From positions 124,001 to 188,000 of the forward strand of contig NZ_LT821227.1 of assembly GCF_900169485.1 (NCBI RefSeq): a stretch of 64,000 nt of DNA, written 5' to 3'. Below the pieces are notes generated by a model. The model saw only the letters and a program-made list of their open reading frames with translations. It had not been told where the DNA came from and made no database searches. The stretch is from Phoenicibacter congonensis (GTDB lineage Bacteria > Actinomycetota > Coriobacteriia > Coriobacteriales > Eggerthellaceae). The translations under genes and the position numbers were made by a program. Shown piece by piece: positions 4,205-31,291 of the stretch (position 1 is the stretch's first letter; every line of letters starts with the position of its first letter).

Positions 4205-5194
4205 CTATGCCCTGACGGTCGCGGCTATTTTAGATGCAATTGGTTTTACTGCATCGCTAGCAACCTTTGAGCCCTCTAGTGTCTTTTTCAAAAGCTCTAC
4301 GACTCCATCGATGTCCCCGCCGGCCTCAAAATAGGAAACTAGGGCACGACCAATGACTTCAGTGGTTCCAAGCGCAACAACTCCAGAGATAACAAAAGCA
4401 GGAAGAGGAATGATTTTGTTAGTAATTTTGAAGACTTTTTTGCCGAAAACCGCAGCAACCAAAACGCCAGCAGCTTCTTTTAAAAGGTTTAAGTCAATTT
4501 TTTTGCCGTATACTGTGGCAATTTGTCCAAGCATACACAGCTGATTCAAAAGCATGATTGGAAAGTCAGCTTTTGAGAAAAACGGAACAATTCCAACTGC
4601 GGTGTTTTCAATTGCAGTCAAGTGAACAATTTCCATAGCAAGCGGACGTGCAACAAAGGGAAAAGCAGCTGCAAAAGCAAACTTTTTTCCAACACAAACG
4701 TTAGCAATCCATGTGCCAAGTTTCTTCTTCATAATCGCGACCGATTCTTTTTCTTCGGGATTCAAAATGCAGTAATCACCTGCTATTTCTCTTTCCGCAA
4801 GGAAACTAGAAACAGATGACGACGTGAATCCATCAAAGACAATGTAGCAAGGAACAGCCATTTCGCGAACTTTGTATAAAAGATCCACCACAGAAGAAGT
4901 GTCGCATCCAACAATCACAGCCATGTCGGCGGAACGGTCGACGTTCACATCGTTGTTGTCAAAATAGCAAATTTGCAAACGAACATTTGGAACAGATGTC
5001 ATGAAAAGGTTGCGAACTACTGTCGACGCCTCGTTAGAAGCATGATTGTCAACAAACAACAAAACATTTAGAGTCATGTCCTCAAGTTTTGAGATTTTGG
5101 CGATTTCGGCACCAACATTTTTGATGTCTTCGGTCTTTGGGACATATTTTTTCACAATTGAATTGACCTGTTTTAACCTAGATTGTCTTGGCAT
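4205..5194 (-). CDS. DUF697-like membrane-associated protein
   Basis: The 329-residue protein resembles DUF697 (YcjF-like) proteins in its C-terminal half. It has hydrophobic helices near 170-210 and 225-290, around PIMLLNQLCMLGQIATVYG and EAAGVLVAAVFGKK. The N-terminal half (about 40-150) looks like a small alpha/beta domain with VLLFVDNH and MAVIVGCDTSSV strands. It could be a degenerate GTPase-like fold, but no intact P-loop is seen. It overlaps the end of rodA by 17 bp, so co-translation is likely. Its role in the elongation machinery is inferred from position only. About 170 bp without a gene separate it from the radical SAM gene. Confidence 0.6.
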   Translation of the reverse strand: MPRQSRLKQVNSIVKKYVPKTEDIKNVGAEIAKISKLEDMTLNVLLFVDNHASNEASTVVRNLFMTSVPNVRLQICYFDNNDVNVDRSADMAVIVGCDTSSVVDLLYKVREMAVPCYIVFDGFTSSSVSSFLAEREIAGDYCILNPEEKESVAIMKKKLGTWIANVCVGKKFAFAAAFPFVARPLAMEIVHLTAIENTAVGIVPFFSKADFPIMLLNQLCMLGQIATVYGKKIDLNLLKEAAGVLVAAVFGKKVFKITNKIIPLPAFVISGVVALGTTEVIGRALVSYFEAGGDIDGVVELLKKTLEGSKVASDAVKPIASKIAATVRA

Positions 5195-6455
5195 ATTTCA
5201 CACCTTTCGACATAGTTGAACCGCCGCCAGCAATTGACTTGCGCCATACATTTGCGACGAGGCCACAACAAGTGAAATTCACAATCATAAACGATGAGCC
5301 GTAACTCACAAATGGCAACGGAATTCCAGTGATTGGCATGACACCACAACACATTCCGATGTTTTCCAAAATTTGGAAAAACCACATCGCACTAATTCCT
5401 AAACATATTAACATACCGAATAAATCGCCTGAATCGCGACCGATTCTCATAGTTAAATATAAAAGAGCCGCATAGAGAGCAAGAAGCACAAGTGCACCAA
5501 CAAAGCCGAGTTCTTCGCACAAAACACAAAAAATAAAATCGGTTGGGGCTTCAGGCAAAAAACCAAGAGTCGACTGCGTAGCGCCGCCAAGACCCTTGCC
5601 AAAAAACCCTCCAGAACCAATAGCAATCATTGCTTGATGCAAGTTGTAGCCTTCACTAGAAGTGTCGGTGCCGCCCTGGTTTAGAAACACAAACAGACGG
5701 TTTCTCTGATAGTTTTTCAAAAGCTTGTATTCAACTGTGCCATCTGATGCTGTCGTTTTCAAAACTTCGTCAAGGGCAAGCAACGCGAGAAAGGCAACAA
5801 TGATGAGCCCGACTGTCATGAGAACATAGCGAGCTCGAGCGCCACCCATTATCACAACCACTGCTGAAATGACAAGATACACAAGTCCTGTGCCGAGGTC
5901 AGGCTGAGTGAGAATGCATATGAATGGAATCGCAAGCATGCCTGCTACTTTGCAATATTCCTTGAAGTCGTCAAGCTTTCCGCCATATTTTGCCATGAGC
6001 GATGCGCCATAAAGAATGACTGTGACTTTAGCAAGCTCACCTGGCTGAAACTGCATTCCAATTTTCACCCACGAACGCGCACCCATCGCTTCAACGCCAA
6101 TCACTGGCAAATGCGGCGATAAAATCATCGCTACAGTCAAAATTAACAGTGGGATGGTCATCTTCTCAAAGACTTTGTAGTCATAAAAATAGGCAGCTAA
6201 ACAGCAAACAATGCCAATGCCAAGGCCCATCATCTGCCGCATGAACGAATATTCGTCATTTTCAGAAACAGCCGAATAGCAAATGAGCAAGCCATAGCTA
6301 ACTAAAAGAAAAAGGACAATGAGCAAAGGCACGTTAATCGCGCTTAACCAAAACGGAAGCTTGGCACCCGGTGCAGGGATTTTGCGCACATGCTTGTGCT
6401 TTCCCCCGGTCGGGGAAAATCCGCCCACGTTATCTAATGTTGGTAGCTTAGCCAA
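5178..6455 (-). CDS. rodA: RodA, SEDS-family peptidoglycan glycosyltransferase
   Basis: The 425-residue polytopic membrane protein has about ten transmembrane segments. It carries SEDS signatures such as ARSWVKIGMQFQPGELAKV, a QPDLGT loop, and the C-terminal GMCCGVMPITGIPLPFVSYGSS. SEDS proteins polymerise lipid II with their class B PBP partner; that PBP (mrdA) is the next gene upstream. The N-terminal 40 residues are a basic cytoplasmic tail. The 206 bp between mrdA and rodA hold no recognisable gene. Confidence 0.95.
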   Translation of the reverse strand: MAKLPTLDNVGGFSPTGGKHKHVRKIPAPGAKLPFWLSAINVPLLIVLFLLVSYGLLICYSAVSENDEYSFMRQMMGLGIGIVCCLAAYFYDYKVFEKMTIPLLILTVAMILSPHLPVIGVEAMGARSWVKIGMQFQPGELAKVTVILYGASLMAKYGGKLDDFKEYCKVAGMLAIPFICILTQPDLGTGLVYLVISAVVVIMGGARARYVLMTVGLIIVAFLALLALDEVLKTTASDGTVEYKLLKNYQRNRLFVFLNQGGTDTSSEGYNLHQAMIAIGSGGFFGKGLGGATQSTLGFLPEAPTDFIFCVLCEELGFVGALVLLALYAALLYLTMRIGRDSGDLFGMLICLGISAMWFFQILENIGMCCGVMPITGIPLPFVSYGSSFMIVNFTCCGLVANVWRKSIAGGGSTMSKGVKYAKTI

Positions 6456-24743: not shown

Positions 24744-26348
24744 CTATGCTTCAACTTTCTCTGTTTGAAGAAGTGACTTAAGCTCCTCAATGCGCTCTTT
24801 TTCAAGCGTCTTGGTTTCCCCTTGCGCAAGTGTCTTCTTAAACGAACCACAAATGGCAAACATAACGAGAATGAAAGGGAACGCTGCAACCAGAGATATG
24901 GTCTGTAACGGTTTCAGAGCGCCACTTCCGCCGCCACCAGCCATCAGCAAGCCAATGCAAACAACTGCGATGATGACACCCCAAAGAATCTTTTTGAAAT
25001 TTGAAGGATTTAGATTTCCTTCAGAGGTGAGCATTGACAAAACATAAACACCACTGTTTGCTGAAGTGATGAAGAAGAAGAGGAGCGACACAAGAGCAAC
25101 AAAGCAGAGGATTTGTCCAACAGGAATTCCAAAAACGCTATATTGTTGCAGAATCACGAACAAGCCAGCAGAAGGGTCAGCTACAGCTTGCTGTGCAGCC
25201 TCAATTGTCATTCTTCCAATTTCAACGAGGTTGATTCCAAGGTTTCCCATGATAGCGCCCCAAACACATGAAGCGATTGCAGGAACAAGGGCAACACCCA
25301 AAACAAACTCTCGAATTGTGCGTCCCTTAGAAATCTTAGCAACAAACACGCCAACAAATGGAGCCCATGCAATAAACCAAGCCCAGTAGAAAACTCTCCA
25401 TGAACCAACCCAAGAATTAGCATCAGCATCATAGCCACTAATGCCGAGTGAAACGCTAAAGAAATCACGAATATAATTGCCAATGCCTTGAGTTAAGCCG
25501 TTGAGATCGGCAACCATAGGTCCAATCAAGAAACATGCAATCATGAGGCCAATAGCGATGTAGAGGTTGGTGTCGGAAATGATTTTCATTCCCTTTTCAA
25601 TGCCCGACACAGCTGATGCTGTGTAAATAACTGTGATGATCGCGATAATCAAGATTTGAACGGTCAAAGTGTTTGGAACACCAAGCATATAGTTCATGCC
25701 AGTGTTAATTTGGATGACTCCGAGTCCTAACGAAGTAACAACAGCAGCAACTGTTGCAAAAACAGCAATAATGTCAATCAACTTTCCAAGCCAGCCGTTC
25801 GCTCTGTCTTCACCAATCAAAGGAACAAGCATCACTGAAATCAGGCCTTTTTTGTTCTTCCTATACATGAAGTAGGCAAGGGCAAGGCCGACAACGGCAT
25901 AGTTAGCCCATGGAAGAATTCCCCAGTGCATAAAAAATGATGACAACGCAAAGTCTGCTGCACCTGGTGTTGCAGCCTCAATGCCTGTGCCAGCTTGAGG
26001 ATAAAGATAATGTGTCAAAGGTTCTGCAACTCCCCAAAACACAAGACCAACGCCCATGCCACATCCAAACAAAAGACCAAACCATGTGAAATTTTTAAAC
26101 TCAGGCCTTGAATCGTCGGCTCCTAATCTAATTTTTCCAAATTTACCGAAAGCGCACCAAGCCATAAAGAAGAAAAACACAAGCATCGCTATGAGATATA
26201 GCCAAGCAAAATCGGATGTCAAAACACCGAAGCAAATGTTTGCAACAGCCGCGAAACTCTCGTTGCCAGCTACTGACCAAATTGCCATTGCGCCAACGAT
26301 AATGAGCGAAATGATAAACACGGGGTTGCTCAGTTCTTTTTTATTCAT
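24744..26348 (-). CDS. BCCT-family betaine/choline/carnitine transporter
   Basis: The 534-residue protein has about twelve transmembrane helices and BCCT signatures: FGCGMGVGLVFWGVAEPLTHY, a Gly-rich helix, and WRVFYWAWFIAWAPFVGVFVAKISKGRTIREF, which contains the Trp-rich substrate box. It imports quaternary ammonium compounds with Na+ or H+. The grd-type reductase genes lie just beyond a small gene, so glycine betaine or a relative is the likely cargo, used as electron acceptor and not only as osmolyte (inference). It has its own terminator. Confidence 0.92.
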   Translation of the reverse strand: MNKKELSNPVFIISLIIVGAMAIWSVAGNESFAAVANICFGVLTSDFAWLYLIAMLVFFFFMAWCAFGKFGKIRLGADDSRPEFKNFTWFGLLFGCGMGVGLVFWGVAEPLTHYLYPQAGTGIEAATPGAADFALSSFFMHWGILPWANYAVVGLALAYFMYRKNKKGLISVMLVPLIGEDRANGWLGKLIDIIAVFATVAAVVTSLGLGVIQINTGMNYMLGVPNTLTVQILIIAIITVIYTASAVSGIEKGMKIISDTNLYIAIGLMIACFLIGPMVADLNGLTQGIGNYIRDFFSVSLGISGYDADANSWVGSWRVFYWAWFIAWAPFVGVFVAKISKGRTIREFVLGVALVPAIASCVWGAIMGNLGINLVEIGRMTIEAAQQAVADPSAGLFVILQQYSVFGIPVGQILCFVALVSLLFFFITSANSGVYVLSMLTSEGNLNPSNFKKILWGVIIAVVCIGLLMAGGGGSGALKPLQTISLVAAFPFILVMFAICGSFKKTLAQGETKTLEKERIEELKSLLQTEKVEA

Positions 26349-26564: not shown

Positions 26565-27122
26565 TCAATAAATTTCTCTCTCGATAATCCACTCATCACG
26601 AATTTCCCAAACACAGCCAACATTATTCTGCATGTCATCAGAAGGTGTGCAACAGCGCGGCCAGCTGCGAATTATTTCGCTTTTAAACTGAGGAAACATG
26701 TTTCCCTTATCACTCATGATTAATGAAGCCTCGTTAACAATTCCTGCATCACGCAGTTTTTTGTCATGAGCACGTTCATCGTTGTCATCAACGGGGACAT
26801 ACATGTAATTCAAAACATATCCCCACTTGTTGTAATCAATGATAAAGAGTTGTTCATCAGGTACATCAACTGTGAGGGAAACCTCACCTTCTGCCTCAGG
26901 AAGTCTGGCTTCTTCTGTGAGAGCTAGCCAAATTGGCAAATATAGGTCATCTGGAACTGTTATTTGTTTTCTAGCCTGATCAGTTAGCCATCGATAGGCC
27001 TGGATGTAATAGTCAGAAATTGTGTCTGACTTAGCACGGAGGAATTGCTCGCGGCAAATGAAGCTGCCGTTCGCTTCAAGTTCTTTTAGCACAAGAACAT
27101 TTTGTCTTGTCCAAACTACCAT
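26565..27122 (-). CDS. DUF3841-like protein
   Basis: The 185-residue soluble protein starts VVWTRQNVLVLKELEANGSFICR, followed by YRWLTDQARKQI and PIWLALTEEA. It resembles DUF3841 proteins, whose function is unknown. The ATG at 27122 has GGGAGGGG upstream, so it is preferred over the start at 27140. It is divergent from the grdE-like gene and may share its control region. The 216 bp between it and the BCCT gene hold only AT-rich DNA. Confidence 0.6.
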   Translation of the reverse strand: MVVWTRQNVLVLKELEANGSFICREQFLRAKSDTISDYYIQAYRWLTDQARKQITVPDDLYLPIWLALTEEARLPEAEGEVSLTVDVPDEQLFIIDYNKWGYVLNYMYVPVDDNDERAHDKKLRDAGIVNEASLIMSDKGNMFPQFKSEIIRSWPRCCTPSDDMQNNVGCVWEIRDEWIIEREIY

Positions 27123-27297
27123 TGCAACCCCTCCCTTCACATCAGCAGTCGAACTTCTGACCGAATTAATTCAACAAAATAGAAAACGCTGAATTAATTT
27201 AGCTAGTCTAAAAATACATTATTTTTGAATATTTATCAAGATATTTTGAACAAAATTTGAAGCCGTTTAGGAAAACTGAACTTATCGCGATAACATT

Positions 27298-27313
27298 TGT
27301 TTCATGAGAAACA
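27298..27313. promoter_or_regulatory. TGTTTC-ATGA-GAAACA inverted repeat
   Basis: A perfect 6-bp dyad lies about 70 bp upstream of the grdE-like promoter, in the divergent region shared with the DUF3841-like gene. It is a candidate operator for the TetR regulator encoded after the operon. The rest of 27123-27380 is AT-rich and includes GAATTAATT repeats near 27163-27200. Confidence 0.4.
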
Positions 27314-27381
27314 TGCCATTACTGTCGGAATATGATTATTTAAACAAAATTTCAGGTATTTAAAAAATAATCAGCCTATTT

Positions 27382-27410
27382 TTGACAAACATGTTTAATT
27401 TAAGTATAAT
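27382..27410 (+). promoter_or_regulatory. Consensus sigma-70-type promoter of the grd-like operon
   Basis: TTGACA at 27382-27387 and TATAAT at 27405-27410 are separated by exactly 17 bp. The spacer contains the perfect palindrome AAACATGTTT (27387-27396), a possible operator that would block RNA polymerase. Transcription would start near 27417, and the leader contains a small TGAGG/CCTCA hairpin at 27421-27435. Confidence 0.8.
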
Positions 27411-27479
27411 AAACGCAATTTGAGGGTATTCCTCACAAGCTGTTTGTTCACGTTTAGAAATGAGAGGAGTGTGAAATCG

Positions 27480-28808
27480 ATGAAACTGGAGATTGGAAAT
27501 ATCCAAGTAAAAGACGTGGTTCTTGGAACAGAAAATTCTTTTAAGAATGGCATTCTTACTATAAACAAGCAAGAAGCTATTGACTACTTAAAAGAAAAAG
27601 ACGACCACTTGACAGATGTTGACATTGTGATTGCTCACCCAGGTGACGACACAAGAATCTGTCCAGTCGTCGAAACTATTGAGCCAAGAATGCGCGTTGA
27701 TGGTCGCACATTATTCCCGGGCGTAACTGATGATGTCGTGCCTGCAGGCGAAGGCGAACTCAAAGCTTTTAAAGGCTGCTGCGTCACAGTTGTGGCAAAA
27801 GAATGGGGTTCATTCGGCGACGGTGTTATTGACATGGGCGGCGAAGGAGCAAAGCACACCTACTGGTCAAAACTCATTAACATTTGCTTAGTTGGTGACA
27901 CTGATGAAGAATTCGAGAGACATGAACAGCAAAAATGCAACCATGCTCTTCGTTGGGCAGGCCACCGCTTTGCCGAGTGGATTGGAAAAATTGCAGAGAA
28001 TGTCGCTGTGGAAGAGACTGAGGTTTATGAGTTTGACCCAATCTTGAAGCGCGATGACTCACGCAAGGAGCTCCCAAATGTTGTTGCTGTTCTGCAGCCT
28101 CAATCGCAAATGGAGGCATTGGGCTACAACGATCTTTGGTATGGATGGGATATGAATAAATATCTGCCTTCTTTCGTGAGTCCAACAGAGGTTTTCGATG
28201 GCGCAATAATTTCTGGCTCATTCATGCCATCGTCATCAAAATGGTCAACCTATGAGATGCAAAACTTCCCAACATTAAAAGAGCTCATGAAGCATGACGG
28301 CAAAGAATTTAACTTTGTAGGTGTCATCATGTCAAACTTAAACGTTGCTCTTGAACAAAAAGAGCGTTCAGCCATTATGGTTCGCAACATGGCCCTCAAT
28401 CTTGGAGCAGATTATGCCCTTGTAACTGAAGAAGGTTATGGAAACCCTGATGCTGACTACGTTCGTTGCCAGGTGATTCTTGAAGACGCAGGCATTCCTG
28501 TTGTTGGTATTTCGAATGAATCGGTTGGACGTGACGGATTTGGACAACCGCTTGTTACGCTCGACGAAAAAATGACCGCTCTTGTTTCCACAGGCAACGT
28601 TGGTGAGCTTTCTGACCTCCCAGCGTGCAAAACAGTTATTGGCAATCTTGAAGCACTGAACCGCGATGGCATGTCAGGATCTTGGGGTTATGACGAAATC
28701 CTCGGCAAATCAGGTCGTGACGATGGGTCAGTCATTATGGAAGACAACAACTGGTTCTGTGGCGACCACATTTCAGGTTTCTGCATTAAGACCATGAGAG
28801 AAGTTTAG
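27480..28808 (+). CDS. Glycine/sarcosine/betaine reductase component B, GrdE-like proprotein
   Basis: The 442-residue protein matches the GrdE/GrdG/GrdI family: VVAHPG-type IVIAHPGDDTRI, FPGV, WGSFGDGVIDMGGEGAKHTYWSKL and YNDLWYGWDMNKYLPSF. Family members are cleaved to two subunits, with a pyruvoyl group formed from an internal Cys. That group binds the amine of the substrate. Here the matching region reads DGAIISGSFMPSSSKWSTYEMQ, with Ser251-253 and no Cys. The ATG at 27480 has GAGAGGAG upstream; the longer reading from 27420 is not supported. It is followed 10 bp later by the selenoprotein gene. Confidence 0.88.
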   Translation: MKLEIGNIQVKDVVLGTENSFKNGILTINKQEAIDYLKEKDDHLTDVDIVIAHPGDDTRICPVVETIEPRMRVDGRTLFPGVTDDVVPAGEGELKAFKGCCVTVVAKEWGSFGDGVIDMGGEGAKHTYWSKLINICLVGDTDEEFERHEQQKCNHALRWAGHRFAEWIGKIAENVAVEETEVYEFDPILKRDDSRKELPNVVAVLQPQSQMEALGYNDLWYGWDMNKYLPSFVSPTEVFDGAIISGSFMPSSSKWSTYEMQNFPTLKELMKHDGKEFNFVGVIMSNLNVALEQKERSAIMVRNMALNLGADYALVTEEGYGNPDADYVRCQVILEDAGIPVVGISNESVGRDGFGQPLVTLDEKMTALVSTGNVGELSDLPACKTVIGNLEALNRDGMSGSWGYDEILGKSGRDDGSVIMEDNNWFCGDHISGFCIKTMREV

Positions 28809-28818
28809 GGGGTGCAAC

Positions 28819-30150
28819 ATGACTAAGAAAGTAATTGTTTACCTAAACCAATTCTTCGGTGGAAAAGGTGGCGAAGACACTGCAGATTATGAGCCAGAGC
28901 TCATAGAAGGTTTAGTTGGCCCTTCAGTGGCAATGAATGCTCAACTTAAAGACGCAGAAGTAACTCACACAATCATTTGTGGAGACAACTTCATGGGCTC
29001 AAACACCGATGAGGCACTTGCAAGAATCGAGAAAATGCTAGATGGCCTCGAATTCGACATGCTCCTTGCAGGTCCTGCTTTCCAAGCAGGCCGCTATGGC
29101 GTAGCTTGCGGTAATGTTTGCAAGCTTGTTGCTGAGAAATATGGAGTTCCTTGCATTACCTCAATGAATGTTGAGAACCCTGGTGTTGACATGTTTAAGA
29201 AAGACTGCTTCATCATGAAGGGTCACAATGCTGCTGCTCAAATGAGAAAAGACGTTCCTGCAATGACAGATTTTGCAAATCGTCTCCTTGCAGGTGAGCC
29301 AACTCGTGGTGCCGATGAAGAAGGCTACTTCGCACGCGGCTGCCGCCATGAAGTTTTCCTCGAAGATGTTTATGAAAACACTGCTGCCTATCGTGGTGTG
29401 CAAATGCTCATCAAGAAAATCAAGGGCGAGGACTACCAAACAGAGCTCATCATTCCCAAAAAAGATCTTGTCCCAATTGCACCTGCAATCAAAGATCTTT
29501 CAGAGGCGACGATTGTTCTCTGCACAACAGGCGGCATTGTTCCAGTAGACAACCCAGACAGAATTCAATCTGCATCTGCCACTCGTTGGGGCCGATACAA
29601 CGTAGCTGGTCTTGACAAACTCCCTAACCGAGCAGAGGGCGGCTACAAAACAATTCACGCAGGATATGACCCTGCAGCTGCCGATGCTTGCCCTGATGTT
29701 TGCACACCAATCGATGCTCTTCGCCAATATGAAAAAGAAGGCAAGATTGGAAAGCTCGACGACTGGTTCTACACAACAGTTGGCACGGGAACAACAGAGT
29801 CTGAAGCTGCGCGCATGGCCAATGAAATGCTTCCTTTCTTTGAGGAAGAAGGAGTCGATGGCGTAATTATGACCTCCACTTGAGGCACCTGCACTCGTTG
29901 CGGTGCAACGATGGTTAAAGAATTCGAGAAGGCAGGCTATCCAGTAGTGCACATGTGCAACCTTGTTCCTGTTGCTCTCACGGTCGGCGCAAACAGAATT
30001 GTTCCAACAATCTCAATTCCATATCCACTTGGAGACCCAAACACTCCAGTCGAGGAGCAATACAAACTTCGTTATTCTCGCGTGGGAACAGCTCTAGATG
30101 CTCTCGCAACTGACTGCGATGAACAAACTGTTTTTAAAGTAAAGATCTAA
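28819..30150 (+). CDS. GrdB-like selenoprotein (component B gamma), in-frame UGA = selenocysteine
   Basis: The frame is open from ATG 28819 to TAA 30150 except for one TGA at 29881-29883. Reading TGA as Sec gives 443 residues with Sec355-G-T-Cys358-T-R-Cys361, the UxxCxxC motif of GrdB/GrdF/GrdH. Both flanks are typical family sequence: GVIMTST before and GATMVKEFEKAGYPVVHM with ANRIVPTISIPYPLG after. The enzyme reduces the amine-bound substrate and passes a carboxymethyl group to selenoprotein A. The substrate (glycine, sarcosine or betaine) cannot be fixed from sequence; the BCCT neighbour favours betaine. grdA, grdC/D and sel genes are not in the window. Confidence 0.93.
29884..29906 (+). 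promoter_or_regulatory. Candidate bacterial SECIS hairpin
   Basis: Directly after the UGA, GCACC (29885-29889) pairs with GGTGC (29902-29906). GCA (29891-29893) pairs with TGC (29899-29901). A bulged T lies between the stems and the loop is CTCGT. Position and size suit SelB-dependent Sec insertion. Confidence 0.65.
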
Positions 30151-30207
30151 CTCCCTTGACTTTGCTTTAAATATTAACCAGCTCTTTCCCAGGAGTCGGT
30201 AACGCTC

Positions 30208-30234
30208 AAAGGCTGCTTTCGGGCAGCCTTTTTT
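30208..30234 (+). terminator. Terminator of the grd-like operon
   Basis: AAAGGCTGC pairs with GCAGCCTTTTTT around a short loop, 58 bp after the selenoprotein stop. The two-gene transcript ends here. Confidence 0.92.
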
Positions 30235-30619
30235 GTGACTAGAGCTTAATGACAATGGAAGCACAACTCACAAATGCCGCATATATTTCGCTTTTTTTAC
30301 TTGGATTAACACAAAATCAAGCACTACGCACATAACACCGCTTGCTGGCATGATTTTATATGTATACATTGATGAAGTGTAAAAAAGAAAAATCAACACT
30401 TCATTTTTATAATTAAATGTTCTTTAAAGAATGGTTCAGAAATTGTAATGAGTTTAATCGCTGATAACCCAGAATGATATTACAATTTTGTCGAATACGA
30501 TTAATGAAACAAAAACTCACTGTATAGCTGATAAAACTATGGTTATATTAATTAAACAGCTCCAATTTGTTGTACAAAAAACTGGTAAAATTTGAAAAAA
30601 AATAGCCTAAGGAGTGGTA
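30235..30619. other. Intergenic region upstream of tetR-type gene
   Basis: AT-rich DNA without a gene. A perfect 9-bp inverted repeat, ATGAAGTGT (30372-30380) and ACACTTCAT (30396-30404), is followed by TTTTTAT. It could be a weak terminator or an operator. The promoter of the regulator gene should lie in 30480-30600, where the sequence is very AT-rich. Confidence 0.5.
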
Positions 30620-31291
30620 ATGGGCAGAACTAAATATAGCGAAGCTGAACGTGACAAAATCATTGTAATGTTCATTTCTGCTGCTAGAGAAATAATCGAA
30701 ACAGAAGGAATTAAAAAAATTACTGTAAGAAAAGTTGCAGATCTAGCAGGGTGCAACTCCTCACTTCTTTATTTCTATTTCCACGACGTTGATGAACTTG
30801 TGACAATGTCATCAATGAGCTATCTAGAAAAATACACTCGCAGTCTTGTAGCGGATCTCAAAAAACTCGAAAATCACTATGATATTTTTCTTCACACCTG
30901 GGAAGTTTTTACCGTTTACGCACTTGACAACCCAGAAGTGTTCAACCAGATTTTCTTCTGTGAACACAAAGTGCCACTTGAAAAGATGATTCGTGAATAT
31001 TATCGTTTGTTCCCTGCACAACTTGAGAATGTTGGAGCTAGCGTTAAAGACATGCTATACCAAGGAACTCTAATCGAAAGAAACCTTGACATATTGCGGC
31101 CTCTTGTGACAGAAGGCATCATAAAGGCTGACAACCTCGACATGATCAACGATTTAATGCTCAGTTATTTCCACGAGATTCTCAGGCAGCGCCTTGCCTC
31201 AGATGGCGGCCTCATCGAATGTGAACAAATGCGCACACGCTTCATGAAAGTTGTCGAATACCTCGTCGAAAAAGAAAAAGTAGCAGCGTAG
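30620..31291 (+). CDS. TetR-family transcriptional regulator
   Basis: The 223-residue protein has an N-terminal TetR helix-turn-helix: AAREIIETEGIKKITVRKVADLAGCNSSLLYFYFHDVDELV. The C-terminal ligand domain is family-specific and not recognised. The ATG at 30620 has AAGGAG upstream; a GTG two codons earlier is less likely. It follows the grd-like operon on the same strand, so it may regulate it or the BCCT gene (inference from position and the palindromes at 27298 and 27387). Confidence 0.88.
   Translation: MGRTKYSEAERDKIIVMFISAAREIIETEGIKKITVRKVADLAGCNSSLLYFYFHDVDELVTMSSMSYLEKYTRSLVADLKKLENHYDIFLHTWEVFTVYALDNPEVFNQIFFCEHKVPLEKMIREYYRLFPAQLENVGASVKDMLYQGTLIERNLDILRPLVTEGIIKADNLDMINDLMLSYFHEILRQRLASDGGLIECEQMRTRFMKVVEYLVEKEKVAA

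Follow-up and report, generated by a model that had tools for sequence, protein, structure and literature searches.

A probable betaine-type GrdH selenoprotein in a small coriobacterial genome, and an apparent UAG selenocysteine codon in a genome of the same family

The closest described systems are the GrdH/GrdI proteins of amino-acid-fermenting clostridia such as Eubacterium acidaminophilum and Clostridium sticklandii, in which selenocysteine (Sec) sits in a UxxCxxC motif with a SECIS element, the alpha subunit is unprocessed, a BCCT transporter gene is a neighbour and GrdA, GrdC and GrdD are shared. Sec is reported as residue 352 of 440 in C. sticklandii GrdH (PMC3091704). GrdE, the alpha subunit of glycine reductase, is a proprotein and is cleaved at a cysteine, which turns into a pyruvoyl group (PMC9908766); GrdI of betaine reductase is without those cysteines and is not a proprotein (PMC10838667). 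Betaine reductase genes have been reported mainly from Firmicutes, and from Spirochaetes, Proteobacteria and Fusobacteria in some habitats. The window, by which we mean the whole 64,000-nucleotide stretch of Phoenicibacter congonensis DNA analysed here, carries a grdIH locus with the same features, with Sec at 355 of 443 residues in GrdH (Table 1). This GrdH is 61-68% identical to most clostridial copies and 78% identical to that of Olsenella profusa. Unlike the clostridial loci, the window locus has a coriobacterial host and no adjacent grdA, grdC or grdD; its BCCT gene is divergent rather than downstream, and its TetR gene comes after grdH rather than before grdI. The gene is a further member of a known enzyme type that is rare in its bacterial group.

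Table 1. Features of the grdIH region, and of the selenocysteine loci in genome G014
Feature	Position	Strand	Evidence
BCCT-family transporter, probable betaine importer	24744..26348	-	PF02028 562 bits; NF047988 569 bits
DUF3841 protein, between the BCCT gene and grdI	26565..27140	-	PF12952 167 bits
Perfect sigma-70 consensus promoter, TTGACA-17-TATAAT, ahead of grdI	27382..27410	+	Pattern scan, 12/12 matches; such scans are no evidence of function
grdI, component B alpha subunit without pyruvoyl-forming cysteine (SGSFMPSSSK)	27480..28808	+	PF09338 541 bits; site comparison
grdH, betaine-type component B beta subunit, 443 aa selenoprotein	28819..30150	+	NF040795 758.8 bits, TIGR01918 659 bits, PF07355 501 bits; tree
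In-frame TGA, selenocysteine 355, UxxCxxC motif	29881..29883	+	TGA in 88/88 GrdH-type loci; conserved coding 3' of TGA
SECIS_4 element	29884..29921	+	Rfam RF01990 64.5 bits, E=2.7e-14
Conserved SECIS core hairpin, CGTTGC / GGT loop / GCAACG	29896..29910	+	86-sequence comparison
Likely intrinsic terminator, AGGCTGC / TTTCGG / GCAGCCT then T run	30210..30234	+	By eye; absent from the pattern-scan list
TetR-family regulator, BetI-like, candidate grdIH regulator	30614..31291	+	PF00440 29.3 bits
G014 grdB, on L161 (G014:C6:1-20000)	4895-6208
G014 grdA, on L161	10289-10795
G014 selA, on L161	12293-13690
G014 selB, on L161	13681-15612
G014 tRNA-Sec, anticodon CUA	L147:1501-1593		RF01852 64.2 bits

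The grdH frame runs from its ATG through 354 open codons to the TGA, and then through 88 further codons to a TAA at 30148-30150. It starts ten bases past the grdI stop, with an AGGGGG ribosome-binding site in the gap. As the initial annotation anticipated, a standard gene caller ends the gene at TGA 29881, which is how a true stop, leaving a pseudogene or a 354-residue protein, would look. With the TGA read as Sec, the product carries the proposed UxxCxxC family motif as U355-GTC-TRC. The halves on either side of the TGA fall within single family models: NF040795 spans residues 4-443 and TIGR01918 spans residues 4-440, the latter against a cut-off of only 65 bits, which places the protein end to end in the GrdB family; the PF07355 model stops before Sec. 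The Sec codon is TGA, in the same column, in every one of the homologous GrdH-type loci that we fetched from public and sampled genomes, a few of which are duplicates of one record. Amino acid identity to relatives is 80-85% after the TGA versus 65-76% before it (85% versus 76% for Olsenella profusa, 80% versus 65% for Clostridium ljungdahlii), and the segment after the TGA has a pN of 0.13-0.16 versus a pS of 0.70-0.83, with synonymous sites near saturation. Judged by these comparisons, the conserved TGA and the conserved coding beyond it are not chance.

An AlphaFold2 model of GrdH, built with 30 homologues, has a mean pLDDT of 84.8 and a pTM of 0.54. In this model Sec355 comes after a strand (348-353) and ahead of a helix (358-371), and most of the post-Sec segment is above a pLDDT of 80; a confidently folded post-Sec segment is what one continuous polypeptide would give. 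Because the pTM is moderate, the packing of the domains is uncertain. A PDB sequence search found no solved relative at E≤0.01, and Foldseek on the model gave partial matches only, with TM-scores of about 0.2, from which we drew no fold assignment. Against a true stop, then, stand 88 conserved codons under purifying selection, a TGA kept across the GrdH-type loci together with a conserved SECIS, a full Sec machinery in the genome and a predicted fold that continues past Sec. We regard a true stop as scarcely credible, and we rejected the pseudogene in particular on the strength of the TGA in all 88 loci and the conserved coding after it. The end-to-end family models, the invariant TGA and the purifying selection all bear out the original proposal of one selenoprotein of 443 residues across the TGA. 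An annotation that ends at TGA 29881 would lack the final 88 residues along with the catalytic Sec.

SECIS_4 is the sole Rfam match at E≤1 within 27000-31000, and its score compares with a cut-off of 38 bits. The initial annotation had drawn a hairpin with stems 29885-29893/29899-29906 just after the UGA. A SECIS is present there and the drawn stems are complementary, forming the minimum free energy structure of the single window sequence (-11.0 versus -7.1 kcal/mol for the Rfam register), but the register is not the one that relatives conserve. The drawn hairpin is fully paired in 48 of 86 distinct sequences, and its changes track free third-codon positions; we rejected it as the conserved signal, since relatives do not keep it, even though it is the minimum free energy fold of the window sequence. 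The core stem 29896-29901/29905-29910, with its GGN loop, is fully paired in 69 of the 86, with 96.7% of cells paired. Codons 360 (CGT), 361 (TGC) and 363 (GCA) of the core CGT TGC GGN GCA are almost frozen despite available synonyms (85, 84 and 83 of 86), and the 29901/29905 pair shows a double change, from C-G to T-A, in two sequences. Invariant cells carry no signal alone, and it is the near-absence of synonymous change, the two double changes and the Rfam model that favour 29896-29901/29905-29910 as the conserved SECIS stem.

The genome is a single coriobacterial contig (G000; 1,447,956 bases, 99.7% complete) and holds three GrdB paralogues, in the window and at 398.1-399.4 kb and 1259.1-1260.4 kb, each with an upstream alpha subunit. 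Since all three belong to the same family, the window protein could be component B of glycine or sarcosine reductase (GrdB or GrdF), and it does score 488 bits with the glycine model and 543 bits with the sarcosine model. Both values, however, lie more than 215 bits below its score with the betaine_GrdH model NF040795, and below the cut-offs of their own models: TIGR01917 for glycine GrdB requires 602.2 bits, and the sarcosine models NF040794/NF040793, with which the window pair scores 543 and 303 bits, require 800 and 780. The genome, moreover, already holds a pair of each kind that passes its own cut-offs. The glycine-type beta subunit at 398 kb scores 706.8 bits, and the pair to which it belongs (396.8-399.4 kb, with trxB, trxA, grdA, grdC and grdD) has a GrdB that is 47% identical to the window GrdH. 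The sarcosine-type pair (1257.7-1260.4 kb, accompanied by genes for a GrdX-like protein and a TetR regulator) scores 833.8 bits for beta and 844.2 for alpha, and its GrdF is 51% identical to the window GrdH.

The alpha subunits separate the three pairs in the same way. The processing site reads DGAIISGSFMPSSSK in the window, versus DGAIVSGNCVSACDK and DGAIVSGNCVAPCDK in the glycine and sarcosine pairs; that is, SGSFMPSSSK in the window and SGNCVSACDK and SGNCVAPCDK in the other pairs, both of which keep the SGNC site. The NC is absent from all 88 GrdH-type loci. The glycine pair also differs from the window pair in having a glycine riboswitch in front, and a BCCT transporter adjoins the window pair. 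The model scores and the alpha-subunit site led us to reject a glycine or sarcosine enzyme, and we consider that assignment very unlikely.

The betaine score itself falls 16 bits short of the curated GrdH cut-off of 775 bits. Three coriobacterial relatives score 762, 765 and 790.7 bits with the same model, two below the cut-off and one above, so this threshold cuts through the coriobacterial clade. In a quick maximum likelihood tree of 101 proteins, the window GrdH falls on the GrdH side with a support of 100, inside a clade with a support of 96 whose 14 rows are nearly all coriobacterial. A substrate of similar shape, either a halogenated acetate (as for FarB/FarE) or another quaternary amine, would fit the alpha-subunit site, as FarE likewise lacks the processing cysteines (PMC10838667). 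FarB, however, has no CxxC after Sec, whereas the window GrdH does; the score with the FarE model is 156 bits, where 675 would be required; and the BCCT neighbour and the GrdH clade point to betaine. We hold such a substrate to be highly improbable. Because the best model is betaine_GrdH, GrdI is without the pyruvoyl cysteine, a BCCT gene is the neighbour and the protein lies in the GrdH clade, we are confident that, as far as the sequence can tell, the gene encodes betaine-type GrdH, component B of a selenium-dependent betaine reductase with GrdI. The earlier label of GrdB-like is right for the family but not for the glycine type, as this is the betaine-type paralogue and the glycine GrdB is encoded elsewhere in the genome. 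Three paralogous pairs in one 1.45-Mb genome offer a compact natural comparison of substrate type with loss of the pyruvoyl site.

If grdH is translated through its UGA and works in a betaine reductase, then the genome should supply both Sec decoding and the shared reductase parts, and the initial annotation had argued that selA, selB, selC, selD and a GrdA must be present. They are: selA (543.9 bits), selB (391.6), a tRNA-Sec with a UCA anticodon (70.5) and selD (358.6) lie consecutively at 1090.2-1094.9 kb, a complete bacterial Sec decoding set in which selD has an in-frame TGA of its own (KGG-U-AAKWGPG). As both tRNA-Sec and SelB are there, a pseudogene is not indicated. The genome search also found grdC and grdD, in a cluster at 396-404 kb that reads grdX, grdE, grdB(U), trxB, trxA, grdA(U), grdC, grdD and is headed by a glycine riboswitch aptamer (L024:5161-5257); all its genes pass curated models except grdE, which was identified by PF09338. 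The GrdA, GrdC, GrdD and thioredoxin system that a betaine reductase requires are thus all encoded. GrdA is single-copy; if the three B components are all active, they must therefore share it.

We propose that SelA, SelB, tRNA-Sec and SelD would insert Sec at UGA 29881, with the SECIS hairpin immediately downstream as the guide, and that the neighbouring BCCT transporter would take up betaine (glycine betaine). By analogy with the known family, Sec355, which the CxxC motif after it would protect, would attack the alpha carbon of betaine; trimethylamine would leave and the carboxymethyl group would move to the selenocysteine of GrdA; GrdC/GrdD would release this group as acetyl phosphate, a possible source of ATP; and TrxB/TrxA would re-reduce the system, with thioredoxin as the reductant. 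The net reaction is most likely betaine + reductant -> trimethylamine + acetyl phosphate. Here the choice of substrate draws on homology and context, and the genes, motif, SECIS, machinery and subunit type are read from the DNA.

The BCCT gene adjoins grdIH in most relatives' loci. Its product falls below the cut-off of 650 bits for the betaine-specific model NF047988, and a BCCT-type transporter, OpuD, has been named a betaine importer, with opuD clustered with grdHI (PMC8547467). The sigma-70 consensus ahead of grdI and the GC-rich hairpin with a T run after grdH suggest that grdIH is probably one transcript. Two imperfect palindromes at 27273-27315, about 70-110 bases ahead of the grdI promoter, could be operator sites. 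A related TetR gene is divergent and upstream of grdI in most clostridial loci, whereas that of the window comes after grdH. The sarcosine-type locus (L025:5577-6293) and the betaine-type locus each have a BetI-like TetR-family gene, which suggests paired, substrate-specific regulators. The DUF3841 gene recurs near grdIH in nine coriobacterial, lachnospiral and enterococcal loci.

Among 398 sampled Coriobacteriia genomes, 25 have any match and nine, counting that of the window, carry a copy with at least 71% identity. The closest relatives of the window's seryl-tRNA synthetase are two Eggerthellaceae MAGs (72 and 71%), RUG11413 (68%) and Olsenella profusa (62%), an order unlike that of GrdH, for which Olsenella profusa comes first. 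Together with the patchy presence of GrdH, this discrepancy suggests transfer within the class, one reference protein being thin evidence. The coriobacterial GrdH clade is a further candidate group of trimethylamine producers. One GrdH of the coriobacterial clade is encoded on a contig with the label Flavonifractor (Bacillota), beside a full trxB-trxA-grdA-grdC-grdD set; this points either to transfer or to mis-binning of the contig. In many Coriobacteriia genomes (14 loci), the N-terminal part of GrdB has weak matches (22-28% identity), mostly in short open frames, which are perhaps a GrdB-related protein without selenium.

G014, a genome from the same family, encodes a single GrdB and a single GrdA, and the Sec codon of both is TAG instead of TGA. 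The SECIS sequence past the TAG of grdB is intact, and SelD has cysteine in place of Sec and needs no recoding. The anticodon of the G014 tRNA-Sec is CUA, and it is UCA in five relatives (G000, G220, G236, G279 and G292). From these sequences, the selenocysteine codon of G014 appears to be UAG rather than UGA. UAG still works as a stop in G014, because two genes of the same operon, grdE and grdD, terminate with TAG. Other bacteria are known to encode Sec with UAG and further codons (PMC10778597), and none of the papers searched mentions UAG together with both selenocysteine and Coriobacteriia. Taking the two genomes together, we think it likely that a small-genome coriobacterium with glycine, sarcosine and betaine Sec reductases is an unlisted trimethylamine producer outside the clostridia, and that in its family member G014 the Sec codon used by this enzyme system has switched from UGA to UAG, two genes being recoded and one tRNA anticodon changed. 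G014 is a possible natural test case for a change of Sec codon. In 391 sampled genomes from the class of Clostridium ljungdahlii, near-full-length GrdA has TGA at the Sec position in 48 of 48 cases.
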